From IMG/VR virus record IMGVR_UViG_3300022848_000583, positions 1-55,610 of that record: a DNA stretch of 55,610 nucleotides; one strand, given 5' to 3'. Each line of letters begins with the position of its first letter. The first letter of the stretch is position 1. Shown piece after piece: positions 12,643 to 25,414 of this stretch. The position numbers and the translations under genes are program-made. This DNA comes from a virus. A model generated the notes under the pieces. It ran no database searches. It was not told where the DNA came from and saw nothing but the letters and a program-made list of their open reading frames with translations.

Positions 12643-12860
12643 TATTCTTCGTAATAATCGTTATCTTCATCATCAACAAACTCAGTTACTGCTGAGCTAG
12701 TATAATTATCAGCAAGACCAAACTCCCTAAACTCCTTATCGTTAATAGCATCGTTTAACATACTTACTAGGTTATCTGCGGCTTCTTGCCGCTCCTTCGC
12801 TGGAATATATTGCTTTAGTATGGTATACGCTTCTACTAGGACTTCTACATCAATCGACAT
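12642..12860 (-). CDS. Small acidic protein between uvsX and uvsY-like gene
   Basis: The 72-residue protein is predicted helical with a strongly acidic end (VDDEDNDYYEE). It overlaps uvsX by 11 bases and the uvsY-like gene by one base, so it belongs to the recombination operon. I recall similar small genes at this place in marine T4-like phages without function. A DNA-mimic or partner role for the acidic tail is only a guess. Confidence 0.6.
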   Translation of the reverse strand: MSIDVEVLVEAYTILKQYIPAKERQEAADNLVSMLNDAINDKEFREFGLADNYTSSAVTEFVDDEDNDYYEE

Positions 12861-13941
12861 AGTTCTCTTCTCCTAAGTTATCAACATCCGATTCTACTAC
12901 AATTTCGACTTCCTTGCCTGCGGCTTTATTTTCCCAGTCATTCATAATGATGTCTAAAGACCCGCCTTCGTTACGTTCCCAAGCCTTGCGGAACTGTTTG
13001 ATTTCATCACCTGATGAAGTTGTGTATTTAAGGCTGTTGCCTTCTCTCACCAATAAACTCTTTTTCTCACACAGATCCACAAGTCCGCTGTAAGGGTTCA
13101 TACCGGTTTCATACGGTATTTTAACTTGTATGCCTTCAAATGGTTTTGCGTAACGAGTCTTCATTATCTTACAGCCTGCTCTGATACCTTTTACTTCTGA
13201 TATCTTGTTACCGTCTTCATCTTCTTTAAGTTTCATCTTCTTCATTGCAACAACAATACTGCTTGCATAGATAAAGCCTTGTCCACCGCTGATCTTATCA
13301 TCTGGATCAAACATGTCCTGACTTGCGTATGTGTGGTTAGTTGCCACAAGTCCCACATTGAGCGAACCAATCATGTTAACTGTGTTACGTACAAGTGATG
13401 TTAGTGCCTTGGGCTTACGACCCATATCACCTTTCATATCACCTTTTTCAAACTGTGCTACGTCAGTGGGTGTTAGCAACATACCCAAACTATCAATTAC
13501 AAACAGCACCTTGGGTCTGTCTTCCTCTGCTAGTGTTTTGTACTCTATCATAAAGTCACTAACAGTTTTAGCAACATCATCAATCATAGCCATGTTAAGT
13601 TTTAACAGTTTGTCTTCTGATGTGTCTACATTAAGTGCTTTTAGCCATGCTTCGTCTAGTGCATTTTCTGAGTCAATCAGCACTACAAAAATACCCTGCT
13701 CTTGTGCTGACTTTATGATATTACCTGAACAGATATAACTTTTACCTGCGCCTGACTCTCCGGCAAACACTGTAACTTTACCTAGTGGAACACCTTTGTA
13801 AAAGTCTCCTGAGATAAGATAGTTTAATGCATAGTTTCCTGTGCTTACCCAGTCTGTTGGATCATTGAACCCAAAACTGATTCCTTCAATACTCTTGGTC
13901 AGTCCCTTGCGAAATTTACTTATATCAAACGGTTTTGCCAT
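12850..13941 (-). CDS. uvsX: UvsX RecA-like recombinase
   Basis: The 363-residue ATPase catalyses homologous strand exchange in T4-like replication and repair. It shows the Walker A motif GESGAGKS near residue 60, Walker B as VLFVIDSLGML, a conserved ATNHTYAS segment, and the L2 loop region KISGGQGFIYASS. The C-terminus is acidic, as in UvsX. It lies 2 bases after the radical SAM gene 13944-15101, so the metabolic cassette upstream is probably on the same transcript. Confidence 0.95.
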   Translation of the reverse strand: MAKPFDISKFRKGLTKSIEGISFGFNDPTDWVSTGNYALNYLISGDFYKGVPLGKVTVFAGESGAGKSYICSGNIIKSAQEQGIFVVLIDSENALDEAWLKALNVDTSEDKLLKLNMAMIDDVAKTVSDFMIEYKTLAEEDRPKVLFVIDSLGMLLTPTDVAQFEKGDMKGDMGRKPKALTSLVRNTVNMIGSLNVGLVATNHTYASQDMFDPDDKISGGQGFIYASSIVVAMKKMKLKEDEDGNKISEVKGIRAGCKIMKTRYAKPFEGIQVKIPYETGMNPYSGLVDLCEKKSLLVREGNSLKYTTSSGDEIKQFRKAWERNEGGSLDIIMNDWENKAAGKEVEIVVESDVDNLGEENYVD

Positions 13942-21401: not shown

Positions 21402-21947
21402 TTATTTATGCGTAAAAGAGCCGAAGTAGGTGTAACTGCTTAGGCGCAATTGGTCCTTAGGGAGTACGTTAGGAACTCCGTGATATTGGTCTGAGCCATT
21501 CAACATGAAGTAACCTGTATTAACCTTGTAATGGAACGTATAACGTATTGTTTTGTCTGGGTTATAAAACACTGTACCATGTTCTGACCCTGCATTATCT
21601 AATAGATATATCTGCATTGCTGTTGGTATGTCACCATCTGTGTGCATTTTACAAGTATATGGAGAGTAATCAAGCCAAAAACTACTCCAGCAATCATATT
21701 CCGGAAAGTGTCCATTCATTGAATCTGCAATATCAAGACGCACGGTATTGAGATGCTTATCCAATTCAAACAATATGCTGTCTTGGGGTGGTAATAATTT
21801 TCGTCTAGGCCAATCCAATTGCCCTTCTTGCAACTCCCAATCATATTCCATAAAGTCTACTTGACTAATTTGGTCGATCAAATCTTGCGGATAAATGTCT
21901 TCTACTAGAAATAGATTATGTTGACTGTCAACCGGAGTAATTTTCAT
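21402..21947 (-). CDS. 2OG-Fe(II) oxygenase
   Basis: The 181-residue protein has the iron triad of 2-oxoglutarate dioxygenases: H-x-D in CKMHTDGD near residue 100 and a distal histidine in SDQYHGV, then the 2OG-binding arginine in QLRLSSYTYFG. Such small oxygenases are common in marine T4-like phages; substrates are unknown. Its ATG overlaps the stop of the terminase C-half by 4 bases, so they are translated together. Its last codons (CAT AAA TAA) form the late-promoter octamer of the next gene. Confidence 0.85.
   Translation of the reverse strand: MKITPVDSQHNLFLVEDIYPQDLIDQISQVDFMEYDWELQEGQLDWPRRKLLPPQDSILFELDKHLNTVRLDIADSMNGHFPEYDCWSSFWLDYSPYTCKMHTDGDIPTAMQIYLLDNAGSEHGTVFYNPDKTIRYTFHYKVNTGYFMLNGSDQYHGVPNVLPKDQLRLSSYTYFGSFTHK
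21403..21410 (-). promoter_or_regulatory. Late promoter octamer CATAAATA
   Basis: The octamer overlaps the last codons and stop of the oxygenase gene and lies 5 bases before the ATG at 21397, a near-leaderless arrangement. Confidence 0.5.
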
Positions 21948-23332
21948 ATCATTATAAAGGGCATCGGCGCTTGGAAATCATCTGCACCATCACGCATGTG
22001 ACTATCTAGTTCACTGTCAAAACTCTGTAGTGCCTGTGTCATTCTTAATGCCAATAAACTGGCCATGACCAAATCATCACGTTCGCCTTGTTTTGCGCTA
22101 AAACTAGCACCGTGCGCCACAAATGTTTTAAGTTCACTAATTAAGTTTTGACTGTTGATAATCATTTTCTTACTTTCGATCAAACTTTTAAACTTTGCAC
22201 ACACTGTTAGCTTAGACCTATTTGTAGTAGTAAACCCTTTTCTGTGTAGTCTAGACGAACCCGGGGTAACAGGCTGACTTAAAAATGTGCCTTTGATGTT
22301 CTCTTCACCCATATCACTGATCACTACCAGTCCTGCTTCGCCAAGTGTGTTGTTTTCTATACTATAATAAATGTTATTGGGTGTTTGTGTCATTTCCGCA
22401 ATGTAGTCACAAATTTCCTTTAGGATACCAATTTGTCTTTGTATTGGTGTTTTGTTGTGTTGCCATTCGCCACATTGTATCATTGTAGGCAATTCAAATA
22501 CTTGTATAGCCGCGGGATCACCACCTGTGCCAAGACTTGGATCCAACCCAATTACGTATGTTTTGCCTTTTTGAGGTTTTTTATACCAACGCACTTGTCC
22601 TTGTTTCTCTATGGGACCTTTCCCTTCCATGTCAATCAGTGTGGTGCTGTTAATCAGTGTTTCGTCGTAAATTAAGAACTCACATCCGTGTTCTCGTCTG
22701 AAGCGTTCTTCACCGATACGCCCCATTTCCTCTTCTTTCCACTTGTCATCCCTGTCAGGATGTTCCCACCAGTCTGACTTGTACGCATAGAAACCATTAA
22801 TACCTAACCCGTTTTTGGTTGGGTTACCATACTCGTCTACACTCTTGTTGGCTTGTTTCCATATAAACGCAAACTGATCTTCGTCACTGTTTGGTGTTGA
22901 TGTAATGATTGCTTGACCACCAGTACTAAGTGTGGGTGATATGGATGTCCAAAACTCTCTAGCAATGGTGGGTCGAACAAATGCGAACTCGTCGCATTGA
23001 TGAGAATTAATCTTATTTGCTAGTATGACATGATTCTCTGCATTAAATATTTCGTATGTGTCTTCTAATACCATATCTTCTAATGCTGTTACTATTTTAA
23101 TAGTATTTTCAGAATCTAATTTATCACCTAGTACAATATCTTTTACTTTAATTTCAGTATTACTGATAAAAAATCGATGCTCAAGGGTAGCAATAATAAA
23201 CGACTCATCATTAAATGTTATTTTTCGAGAGTCTTTATTTGCAGTTTCATTTACAAAAATGCCTTCAAAATCTTCCCAACCGTTGGGTGTAAAAATTTGG
23301 TATTCTGTATTAGGTGCGTAAGTTTGTTTCAT
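21944..23332 (-). CDS. 17: Terminase large subunit gp17, C-half, fused to split intein C-part
   Basis: The 462-residue protein has an N-terminal intein part (residues 1-112) followed by the C-extein. The extein begins with Cys113-Asp-Glu, which completes the ATPase Walker B motif, then AIITSTPNSDED (coupling motif). The RNase H-like nuclease follows, with VIGLDPSLGTGG, YSIENNTLGEAG and ERDDLVMASLLAL giving its acidic residues. It is the packaging motor and DNA-cutting enzyme after trans-splicing to the N-half (24211-24858); the joined protein would be about 521 residues, a normal size. The ATG overlaps the end of the homing endonuclease gene by 23 bases. Confidence 0.92.
   Translation of the reverse strand: MKQTYAPNTEYQIFTPNGWEDFEGIFVNETANKDSRKITFNDESFIIATLEHRFFISNTEIKVKDIVLGDKLDSENTIKIVTALEDMVLEDTYEIFNAENHVILANKINSHQCDEFAFVRPTIAREFWTSISPTLSTGGQAIITSTPNSDEDQFAFIWKQANKSVDEYGNPTKNGLGINGFYAYKSDWWEHPDRDDKWKEEEMGRIGEERFRREHGCEFLIYDETLINSTTLIDMEGKGPIEKQGQVRWYKKPQKGKTYVIGLDPSLGTGGDPAAIQVFELPTMIQCGEWQHNKTPIQRQIGILKEICDYIAEMTQTPNNIYYSIENNTLGEAGLVVISDMGEENIKGTFLSQPVTPGSSRLHRKGFTTTNRSKLTVCAKFKSLIESKKMIINSQNLISELKTFVAHGASFSAKQGERDDLVMASLLALRMTQALQSFDSELDSHMRDGADDFQAPMPFIMI
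22997..23332 (-). other. Split intein, C-terminal part (112 residues)
   Basis: It carries the Hint motifs missing from the N-part: block B in IIATLEHRFF (with the T-x2-H-type histidine) and blocks F/G in EDTYEIFNAENHVILAN ending SHQ before Cys+1. The split falls between blocks A and B, not at the usual site before block F. The last residue is Gln, not Asn. The layout resembles the AceL-TerL intein known from Antarctic lake metagenomes. Confidence 0.88.
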
Positions 23333-24203
23333 TAAACCTCTCTATTAGCATTGCACCACTAACCAATGCAGATTCTTTTATGTCATAACGAATCATATTT
23401 AAAAAAACATCAAATTCACTTTTTGATCTATCTATATTATAACTAGCACGGTTGAATAAAGTATCCAAGGTTATAGTACACTTACCATGTTTTGATAAAT
23501 TATCATGCCAAGGCAACATTTGTAAATTACTTTTACTACCTATCAATAATGGACTAACATTATCTTTATATCCTTGTAGTATAGAATATATATGGTCTAT
23601 ATGGTAGGCCCCAGCAACTCCAGCAACTCCTGTTTTGTATCCAGTTGTTATAGCTGATCGCTGTTTTTCGGTAAGATATAATACTATTGACTTATAACGG
23701 TAAAATTCGTTTCGTAGTGCAGGATCTAATATAATTCCTTTCTTAACCTTAGTGTTATTGCCTTTTACAATAGCATGTGTTGCTAATTGTGAATAACCGT
23801 TTCTGCCAAATTGGTCTATATTGTTCATATGAGTAGCACGGGTCTTTTTGCCTAGTTTGGCGTATCCTGATACACCGTCTGAATCCAGACTGGATAATGT
23901 CTGTTTTGATTTAACACATGCCAGCTGGTGCTTCGTTAATCCACTAGTCTTATCTATTTCTTTTAAGCCATCTTTGATATTTTTTCGGCGGGCGGGCGTT
24001 ACACCTCTAACACCAGGGAACAATTTGTCATATTCTGCTACGGTCATCTCTAGTACACGTTCAATGTATGTTGTTTTTATCATACTTAATCGCTCGTTAC
24101 TTACTGGACAAAGTATATAATCTATATTTTCTGTTAAGTAATCTGAATATAGTTGCGAGTTTCTTTTTTGATTTCTACGTTTAAATTGCTCTAGTTTGTT
24201 CAT
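23310..24203 (-). CDS. Free-standing HNH homing endonuclease between terminase halves
   Basis: The product is about 297 residues with ATG 24203 as start (8 bases after the N-half stop and just after a late-promoter octamer). The N-terminal half is basic and contains two short similar segments (DGVSGYAKLGKKTRATHMN and QFGRNGYSQLATHA) that look like DNA-binding repeats. The C-terminal half has a His-Me/HNH core, YHIDHIYSI, then SNLQMLPWHDNLSKHGK. It probably cuts an uninterrupted terminase gene and spreads the split intein locus. It is encoded outside the intein frame, as in fractured-gene split-intein loci. Confidence 0.82.
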   Translation of the reverse strand: MNKLEQFKRRNQKRNSQLYSDYLTENIDYILCPVSNERLSMIKTTYIERVLEMTVAEYDKLFPGVRGVTPARRKNIKDGLKEIDKTSGLTKHQLACVKSKQTLSSLDSDGVSGYAKLGKKTRATHMNNIDQFGRNGYSQLATHAIVKGNNTKVKKGIILDPALRNEFYRYKSIVLYLTEKQRSAITTGYKTGVAGVAGAYHIDHIYSILQGYKDNVSPLLIGSKSNLQMLPWHDNLSKHGKCTITLDTLFNRASYNIDRSKSEFDVFLNMIRYDIKESALVSGAMLIERFNETNLRT

Positions 24204-24207
24204 ACTG

Positions 24208-24215
24208 TATTTATA
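24208..24215 (-). promoter_or_regulatory. Late promoter octamer TATAAATA for the homing endonuclease
   Basis: A perfect T4-type TATAAATA. Its internal TAA is the stop codon of the terminase N-half, and it ends 4 bases before the endonuclease ATG at 24203, so the endonuclease message would be leaderless. Confidence 0.65.
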
Positions 24216-24858
24216 CGAATGCAAATTCATCACCTGAATATTCATCTGGACTATAAAGTTTAATACATAAATCCTTTAATGTAATATCTTCTTCTGCCAA
24301 CGTTTGTTTGTTTCGAATACGAACAATAGTGTCTCCACCTAAACAATATAGCAGTGTAATACTCATACCTCGTCCAGTTGTTTCGGTGGTTGTTTGTGAA
24401 ACAATACGTGATCCGTTTTCAAAGTCTATACTGCCTTTGTTGTAACTAACAACACCAGCACGTATATAGTCCGGGCAAAGTTCGTATGCATACCTAACAC
24501 GTTGCATAATCTCTTGCGCACCTGTGTACTTGTGTGCGGCAATAAGAATTGTGCTATCTGGGTTAAACATGGCCCGCCATAGCAGGTACCCAGCGGCAGT
24601 GGTTGTTTTACCAGTCTGCCTGGGCATAAGACTAATGCTGAATCGGTTTGTATGGTAAGCGTTGATCAGTCTATCCTGGTACTCAAATGGCTTATACAGC
24701 ATCTTACCTCTTGTGGGGTGCTGTATATTAAAGAAGTTACTCATAAAGAAGGTCGGCCCGGTGTCTGGGTCTGCACACTTCATGAATTCCTGTATTTGCT
24801 CCTCTGTGAAGCTTACCTTCTGGTAAGGAGACTTAATAATGTTTGCTTCGTTTGACAT
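24211..24858 (-). CDS. 17: Terminase large subunit gp17, N-half, fused to split intein N-part
   Basis: Starting at ATG 24858 (the first residues match gp17 style, and earlier in-frame starts run into the divergent gene), this is 215 residues: a 171-residue N-extein and a 44-residue intein end. The extein has the packaging ATPase Walker A motif SLMPRQTGKTT and ends GRGMSITLLY, the first half of Walker B. The second half (CDEFAFV) is supplied by the other gene after trans-splicing, so neither half alone can be an ATPase. The last seven residues, GDEFAFV, copy the Walker B peptide. Confidence 0.92.
   Translation of the reverse strand: MSNEANIIKSPYQKVSFTEEQIQEFMKCADPDTGPTFFMSNFFNIQHPTRGKMLYKPFEYQDRLINAYHTNRFSISLMPRQTGKTTTAAGYLLWRAMFNPDSTILIAAHKYTGAQEIMQRVRYAYELCPDYIRAGVVSYNKGSIDFENGSRIVSQTTTETTGRGMSITLLYCLGGDTIVRIRNKQTLAEEDITLKDLCIKLYSPDEYSGDEFAFV
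24214..24345 (-). other. Split intein, N-terminal part (44 residues)
   Basis: It starts with Cys1 in block A (CLGGDTIVRIR), and a short helix DITLKDLCIKLY follows. About 31 residues correspond to a very short intein N-part; the last 13 (from SPDEYSG) have no Hint counterpart and end with the Walker B-like DEFAFV. Confidence 0.88.
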
Positions 24859-24880
24859 AATGATATATACTTTATATACA
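24852..24880 (+). promoter_or_regulatory. Sigma-70-type promoter for HNH nuclease gene
   Basis: TTGACA (24852-24857), a 17-base spacer and TATACA (24875-24880), six bases before the ATG at 24887. The -35 element overlaps the start of the divergent terminase gene. Transcription would begin at or next to the ATG. Confidence 0.6.
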
Positions 24881-24886
24881 GTACTT

Positions 24887-25414
24887 ATGTCAGATACTCT
24901 GCTACTAAACAAAGATTACACCCCCATTTCAGTACTGCCGCTGTCTGTAATACATTGGCACCACTCAGTTAAATTGATGTTCTTAGGCCGCATACAAGTG
25001 CTGGAAACCTATCCTGATTGGCACATAAACAGCGAAAAACTTACCTTAAATGTGCCTAGTGTAGCAGTTACCAAGGAATACTTTAATCCTAAACGTTATG
25101 TACGTTTCAGTAGAACAAATGTTTATTTGCGTGATTTATATCAGTGTCAGTACTGTGCAGATACGTTTGACTTCAAAGATTTATCCATAGATCATGTTAT
25201 CCCACGTAGCCTAAATGGCAAAACGTCGTGGGAGAACTGTGTAACTTCATGTAAGAGTTGCAATAGTCGCAAGGCTGATAAACTGAGAAAGCCGATACGC
25301 AAACCGTTTAAACCAGACTATTGGGGACTAGCATCAGCATGGCGCAACAGTCATGTAGAAATCAAAGACCCTAAGTGGGAACAGTATTTAGGTATAAAAG
25401 CAAAGGTTGCTTAG
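24887..25414 (+). CDS. HNH endonuclease next to terminase
   Basis: The 175-residue protein has a classic zinc-bound HNH domain: YQCQYC near residue 85, then LSIDHVIPRS and WENCVTSCKSCNSRK, giving the four zinc cysteines and the catalytic His and Asn. The N-terminal 75 residues form the small domain usual in this bacterial/phage type. HNH proteins next to terminase genes can assist packaging or act as homing nucleases; this one sits against a terminase already invaded by an intein. It is transcribed opposite to its neighbours from an early-type promoter and ends 4 bases inside the 63-residue gene. Confidence 0.88.
   Translation: MSDTLLLNKDYTPISVLPLSVIHWHHSVKLMFLGRIQVLETYPDWHINSEKLTLNVPSVAVTKEYFNPKRYVRFSRTNVYLRDLYQCQYCADTFDFKDLSIDHVIPRSLNGKTSWENCVTSCKSCNSRKADKLRKPIRKPFKPDYWGLASAWRNSHVEIKDPKWEQYLGIKAKVA

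Follow-up and report, generated by a model that had tools for sequence, protein, structure and literature searches.

A putative I-TevI-like autorepression operator within a mobile split-intein element of a phage terminase large-subunit gene

The viral record IMGVR_UViG_3300022848_000583 (IMG/VR), analysed here over its full 55,610 nucleotides (nt) and referred to below as the window, encodes the large subunit of its terminase (TerL) in two separate genes, each of which carries one part of a split intein. The open reading frame (ORF) list of the window places both genes on the minus strand, with a third gene, for a putative homing endonuclease, in between. We describe this element together with related loci, designated by L-numbers (L005 etc.), and in particular a short copy of the intein's own target site that lies at the promoter of the nuclease gene. 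This copy, which we judge to be the most unusual feature of the locus, goes beyond a first-pass annotation made from the window alone. Our analysis suggests, with a probability of roughly 0.7, that it is an autorepression operator like that of I-TevI. Coordinates refer to the minus strand unless otherwise indicated.

The fractured terminase gene, its split intein and its nuclease

Both TerL genes lie where the first-pass annotation had placed them. The N gene (24211-24858) encodes 215 amino acids (aa) from its ATG, its frame also being open from a TTG at 24912, and the C gene (21944-23332) encodes 462 aa. The N-extein (24346-24858, 171 aa) contains the Walker A motif RQTGKT and ends in ITLLY, the first half of Walker B. 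The C-extein (21944-22996, 350 aa), in which the RNase H-like nuclease domain lies, begins with Cys+1 followed by DEFAFV, the second half of Walker B. In Pfam, the N half matched Terminase_6N (E 2.3e-9) and the C half Terminase_6C (E 7e-6), as in a T4-type terminase ATPase. Because close intein-less relatives (L005-L010, 88-93% alike) read straight through an uninterrupted ITLLYCDEFAFV, the insertion at Walker B is real and lies between Tyr and Cys, in agreement with the joint proposed earlier. Ligation of the two exteins is predicted to give 171 + 350 = 521 aa, which is the product length calculated in the first-pass annotation and also the length of the intein-less L005 protein, about 91% identical. 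By homology, the two gene products would associate and trans-splice into an intact TerL with a restored Walker B motif, and ATPase activity would be expected only after splicing.

The N-intein fragment (24232-24345), delimited by alignment with relatives, comprises about 38 aa from Cys1 (CLGGDTIVRIRNKQTLAEEDITLKDLCIKLYSPDEYSG), and the C-intein fragment (22997-23332) comprises 112 aa ending in NSHQ. Cys1 lies in the N gene and block B, TLEH, in the C part, so that the split falls between intein blocks A and B as had been claimed. An N part of 31 to 44 residues had been put forward as well; 44 residues do run from Cys1 to the stop codon, of which about 38 belong to the intein, and the last six, DEFAFV, are the target copy. 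The C gene had been read as carrying blocks B, F and G before Cys+1. We recovered TLEH, an F-like EDTYEIFNAENH and a terminal NSHQ directly ahead of Cys+1, with the correction that the last intein residue is Gln.

Inteins are recognised by Cys1, a TxxH motif in block B, a penultimate His and Cys+1, and Asn is their usual C-terminal residue. All of the first four are kept in the window intein, which has Gln in the place of the usual Asn. The Gln end was found in 79 of the 87 intein-ended matches at the Walker-B site, a redundant set of loci that includes the window, and the Asn-ending matches (8/87) represent another kind of C-intein. Other Gln-ending inteins are active. The Gln end is a variant, and no ground for excluding the window intein from the atypically split TerL kind.

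Among solved structures in the Protein Data Bank (PDB), a profile of the intein family matched the engineered atypical intein CatC (6dsl_B, E 1.1e-8) and also gp41-1 inteins. The window C part alone matched 6dsl_B at E 0.002, and the N-intein alone found nothing relevant in the PDB, likely because it is only some 40 residues long. The kinship with AceL-TerL, GOS-TerL and Cat-TerL that had been suggested for the window is upheld by the comparison with CatC, the member whose sequence was compared. Those inteins resemble that of the window in their host protein, in being split near the N end and in their short N part, given as 37 aa for GOS-TerL and 25 aa for AceL in the accessible part of PMC11766414. 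They differ from the window in that the latter ends in Gln and not in the usual Asn, and in that its locus adds a nuclease gene and a target copy.

Two kinds of natural relatives (L017/L018 and L026/L028) carry the intein as part of a single open frame, and neither gave a nuclease match. The structure predicted for the fused L026 intein (predicted local distance difference test score, pLDDT, 83) matched 7oec best (E 7e-8), followed by gp41-1 6qaz (E 3.5e-7) and 6dsl_B (E 1e-4). The first-pass annotation had held that a contiguous gene in related phages, with no Hint homology in the extra residues, would speak against a split intein. Related phages with a contiguous gene do exist, yet Hint homology is present in the extra residues, and there are also versions that are fused in nature. 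Gln-ending, naturally split and naturally fused members are hereby added to an intein family that is used for protein labelling.

The gene between the halves (23310-24203) encodes 297 aa, consisting of a conserved N-terminal domain (about residues 1-141) and a C-terminal HNH/Endo VII-like part, and corresponds to the homing-type nuclease gene that had been expected there. No Pfam nuclease family was found in this protein. It matched endonuclease VII weakly in PHROG (E 0.001) and phage proteins, some of them annotated as homing endonucleases, at E 4e-7. Residues D203, H204, N226 and N235 are invariant over 20 nuclease sequences, and a conserved D/H...N...N arrangement is the motif of HNH/Endo VII-like nucleases. 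The predicted structure has a pLDDT of 91 and a predicted template modelling score (pTM) of 0.64. On the basis of the motif and the weak sequence similarity, we classify the protein as a putative nuclease of the HNH/Endo VII type.

A copy of the target site in front of the nuclease gene

The N gene ends in SG-DEFAFV-stop and thereby repeats the start of the C-extein, with five of the six codons changed, each at the third base. The repeat (24214-24234, GGTGATGAATTTGCATTCGTA), which reads G-DEFAFV before the stop and is our putative operator, has its source sequence in the genuine target stretch within the C-extein (22976-22996, TGCGACGAGTTCGCATTTGTT). It overlaps a T4-type late-promoter element, TATAAATA (24208-24215), that adjoins the nuclease start, 4 nt before the ATG. 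The copy spans target bases of about +3 to +20, on the C side only; no stretch of similarity to the N side of the target was found in it. In most relatives the copy lies beyond the stop codon of the N gene or supplies it, and only in the window, L062 and L070 is it in frame. Because it falls outside the frame of the N gene in most relatives, we regard the copy as a DNA site.

We compared 37 Walker-B loci in which the nuclease match begins within the first 10 residues of the protein. Left out of this set were L020, L029, L052, L068 and L073, whose nuclease match begins after residue 10, and L076, which is the window's own copy. The loci are redundant throughout, the copy-bearing ones among the 37 having 20 distinct 21-mers. 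A copy was present directly 5' of the nuclease gene in 33/37 loci, and in 30 of these its register to ATAAATA is exact; L021 and L070 are shifted by 1-2 nt and L075 has a spacer.

When each copy was compared with its own target over 26 distinct pairs, mismatches occurred at 102/182 third codon positions, 21/156 first positions and 12/156 second positions, the three shifted loci (L021, L070, L075) being included in the count. Over 26 distinct 21-mers, there is little or no variation at positions 4-5, 8, 10-11, 13-14, 16-17 and 19-20, and the wobble positions vary. These 21-mers were partly found with a wobble-tolerant pattern, and the loci found through TerL give a similar picture. Intein-less targets can match a copy completely: those of L005-L008 and L038 agree with the L015/L016/L033 copy at 20/20 bases, and the lowest value for that copy among 18 intein-less loci was 17/20. 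The window copy is identical to the intein-less L005 at 16/20 bases. Gene conversion was also considered as a process keeping each copy and its own target alike, and gave no signal (P 0.59).

The copy accompanies the nuclease gene. Within 4 mismatches, it was found in 0/10 loci in which both TerL parts are present and the nuclease gave no match (L003, L004, L014, L017, L018, L026, L027, L028, L053 and L065, a redundant set of about six lineages). In L014 the gap is filled by other DNA, with a decayed remnant of the copy as judged by eye. Of the nuclease gene, only the last third remains in L052 and L068, and their copy has decayed, with 4 mismatches. A 25-base degenerate pattern combining the copy and TATAAATA retrieved 25 stretches from a viral collection, 15 in contigs known before and 10 in new ones, and the nuclease N-terminal domain lay just 3' in 25/25. 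A slightly wider pattern gave a single stretch in a larger bacterial/archaeal collection, before an unrelated transketolase-like ORF, which we take to be a chance match.

Behind the copy there are 34 distinct nuclease proteins, L075 with its spacer being left out. All of them (34/34) match window residues 1-141, at 45-100% identity. The C-terminal part is also matched in 24 (including one fragment of the same type as the window protein), another C-terminal domain is found in nine, and one protein is truncated. In L101, for example, the N part is 90% identical and the C-terminal part is different. That the copy stays with the N-terminal domain suggests that this domain is probably the DNA-binding part. 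No Pfam match was obtained for the other C-terminal domain in the three proteins scanned; presumably it resembles Vsr/EDxHD-type nucleases. In six of the nine loci with this domain a C gene is in reach (L079, L087, L093, L094, L099 and L101), and its C-intein is of the other, Asn-ending kind. Because both differ together in those loci, the nuclease C-terminal domain and the C-intein appear to have been exchanged as one block.

In some relatives one more split intein is inserted at the position that corresponds to residue 217 in the C protein of the window, which is residue 276 of spliced TerL (between RREYGC and EFLxYDET). Inteins at this second site have an Asn end where it was seen. With a target profile built from 35 uninterrupted sequences, the second-best same-strand match, after the true target, lay directly before the nuclease ATG in 6/13 loci (L063, L069, L110, L113, L115 and L119, of which L110, L113 and L115 are near-identical). 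A cruder local-alignment test gave P values of 0 to 0.02 for L110, L111, L113 and L115. The best match in L056 (N-side register, P 0.005) was not counted; it coincides with a GGAG ribosome-binding-like stretch, and the C-side profile scan was unsupportive.

A pattern built on the positive second-site loci retrieved 16 viral contigs. Fifteen bear the copy; five of these are new, and the other 10 were known before and shaped the pattern. The sixteenth, L157 (new), is taken as chance. The layout in the 15 is N-intein, copy, GATAAATA and, 4-5 nt on, the nuclease ATG, and the copy matches the second site's own target. Ten of the nucleases are GIY-YIG and five HNH enzymes, some of the ORFs running off the contig, and NUMOD3 was present in the three copy-bearing nucleases scanned (L063, L119 and L145). 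Since both GIY-YIG and HNH enzymes lie behind it, different nuclease domains share one copy at the second site too.

Of the 13 NATAAATA sites in the window, 11 are followed by a same-strand gene start at a distance of 5-78 nt, against a background of 52,293/55,610 window bases in roughly called genes. From this placement, NATAAATA is very probably a late promoter of the window phage. The distance from ATAAATA to the nuclease ATG is 1-5 nt in nearly all loci, mostly 4 or 5 (1 nt in L063, 31 nt in L098). At window sites 24208, 39828, 21403 and 25608, no more than 4-5 nt separate NATAAATA from an ATG (5 nt at the latter three), a spacing that would suit leaderless late messages.

Autorepression and the competing explanations

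The I-TevI operator of phage T4 shares 15/20 bases with the homing site and overlaps a late promoter; it is bound with the same affinity as the homing site, cut about 100-fold less, and mediates autorepression (accessible parts of PMC2988022 and, for binding, cutting and autorepression, also PMC3943268). Because the layout at our locus is the same as that of T4 I-TevI, we consider autorepression the best-supported reading of the copy. Intein-less alleles with an intact target exist. The nuclease would recognise intein-less TerL around the codons for CDEFAFV and cut there, thereby spreading the intein. It would also bind the copy, probably via its N-terminal domain, without cutting it, and the bound copy would block the nuclease's T4-type late promoter, as I-TevI does in T4. 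A one-sided copy fits binding without cutting.

Several results weigh against this reading. The copy was not found in 4/37 Walker-B loci (L049, L050, L051 and L069, divergent nucleases that have the N-terminal domain), nor in L073, outside the 37, nor in Salicola phage SCTP-2. L070 retains the copy despite a broken nuclease frame. The fit of a copy to its own target does not exceed its fit to the targets of other loci (P 0.59). At the second site no copy was seen in 7/13 loci, namely L056, L060, L133, L134, L136 and L138 (different nuclease) and L062 (HNH). The L069 profile score was not above that of the best reverse-strand match, and GATAAATA is missing in this locus; in the cruder test P was 0.29 for L063, 0.135 for L069, 0.155 for L119 and 0.93 for L062. 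The exact TATAAATA element shows no enrichment in the window, which contains 3 where shuffled sequences led us to expect 4.5. Late transcription of T4-like phages starts about 6 nt downstream of the promoter element, and the spacing seen here would make a late nuclease message leaderless. The nuclease model had no PDB match at E 0.001, with weak HNH matches near E 1. Since the C-terminal domain and the C-intein change together, the copy could travel with the whole left half of the element and not with the N-terminal domain alone. Finally, no target copy was found near the nuclease start in the PolB split-intein element of phage MIJ3.

Other explanations of the copy have to be weighed against autorepression. 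The nuclease may bind it for another purpose, such as activation of transcription, tethering in cis, or a target-sensing switch released by intein-less genomes. The sequence evidence for an operator applies equally here, and titration is physically plausible, given that I-TevI binds operator and homing site with the same affinity (accessible part of PMC2988022); the overlap of the copy with the promoter element favours occlusion, and we regard such a purpose as unlikely. We rank below it, as unlikely too, the view that the copy is a passive scar, target DNA that came in with the nuclease gene at its first arrival and that has no present role. A carried-over flank would be one-sided and would abut the nuclease gene, as the copy does, and L070 keeps its copy beside a broken nuclease frame. 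This view is at odds with the near-invariance of codon positions 1 and 2 while the wobble base varies (26 distinct 21-mers), with the decay of the copy where only a nuclease remnant is left (L052 and L068, by eye also L014), and with the same layout at two insertion sites.

Far less probable is a role at the protein level, in which DEFAFV would be a functional peptide that mimics the C-extein, for instance one that protects the open strand of Walker B or that guides the C part up to the splicing step. DEFAFV is in frame in the window, L062 and L070, but the remaining nuclease-bearing loci listed have the stop codon of the N gene ahead of the copy or within it, no copy was found in loci with no nuclease match, and at the second site the copy likewise comes after the N-intein. 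As relatives have the copy outside the reading frame, we abandoned the peptide reading. Least credible of all is a decayed terminase whose extra residues are not a working intein. Its terminal Gln in place of Asn and the lack of a relevant PDB match for the N-intein alone would agree with decay. Both parts are nevertheless intact, with Cys1, TLEH, the penultimate His and Cys+1 kept; the Gln end is common to most relatives, an intein fold is predicted for a naturally fused member, and the ligated product has the length of intein-less TerL.

Autorepression may also be part of something broader. Split-intein homing elements might repeatedly have joined the late promoter of their nuclease to a copy of the element's own target. 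This copy would act as a target-sensing switch and go with the DNA-binding, not the cutting, part of the nuclease, so that promoter DNA alone would predict the target. The nuclease would then be repressed while all genomes in the cell are occupied, and released when the intein-less genomes of a competitor titrate it. We put this forward tentatively and hold it to be rather doubtful.

If autorepression is the correct reading, split-intein nucleases of several types, inserted at two sites in a single gene, would share the solution of the T4 enzymes. The recognition sequence of a homing nuclease could then be read from its promoter, here a stretch of about 18 bases whose conservation is mainly at codon positions 1 and 2. 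Such copies would tell the DNA-binding part of a nuclease from its cutting part.

Relation to known systems and further observations

Dassa et al. reportedly described, in 2009, fractured genes that have split inteins and, between their two parts, a homing endonuclease. The MIJ3 PolB element has the same order as the window, with N half, nuclease gene and C half (accessible part of PMC6892783, and the sequence record). For I-TevI, autoregulation via a target-like operator has been demonstrated, and two further T4 intron enzymes have been proposed to be regulated in this way (accessible part of PMC2988022). I-TevI, I-TevII and I-TevIII likewise have a near-copy of the homing site immediately ahead of the nuclease ORF, where it overlaps a late or middle promoter. 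The T4 elements are group I introns, whereas here a split intein lies in a terminase gene, and, unlike in T4, the same copy precedes nucleases with different C-terminal domains. The intein kind of which ours is a Gln variant, the gene order and the operator principle are thus each known separately. In the accessible portions of the literature searched (including PMC2988022, PMC3943268 and PMC10448857), which did not cover the founding fractured-gene paper, we found no operator of split-intein nucleases, and neither the present combination nor its recurrence at two sites.

Fifty gp41-1 split-intein loci (L160-L209) were also collected, and target identity in the 7 loci tested gave P values of 0.008 to 0.708. 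In gp41-1 loci TATAAATA stands before a GIY-YIG ORF, and in several of them a 12-base identity to the gp41 target abuts its ATG. We treat a gp41-1 copy as a weak lead.

At the Walker-B site, L079, L087, L093, L094, L099, L101/L106 and L119 have a different C-intein, ending in TKN (Asn), beside a window-like N-intein. It is paired with the other nuclease C-terminal domain in all but L119, as if one block had been exchanged.

TerL can be fractured further in relatives. In L069 (400-5438) it is broken by three split inteins, at Walker A, Walker B and the second site, giving four genes for one protein, with nuclease genes in two of the gaps. In Salicola phage SCTP-2 (MF360958; L077, L108 and L109), TerL is apparently encoded at three distant places, with matches at 429482-429733 (minus) and 256692-257120 (plus) and a gene at 215993-218077 (minus). 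These pieces end or begin in intein parts, and the last contains a third intein in one frame. In some loci (L015:346-1125, L016:2659-3438, L052:2307-3098 and L033:1-561), a second TerL-ATPase-like ORF, short, intein-less and about 31-40% identical, comes to an end immediately ahead of the fractured terL gene.

Elsewhere in the window, an HNH gene on the opposite strand (24839-25414, plus; HNH_5, E 3.8e-16) overlaps the start of the terL N gene. On the minus strand we also observed a RecA-like gene (12850-13941, E 1.1e-14) and a periplasmic-binding-protein-like gene (367-1374, PBP_like_2, E 7e-38).

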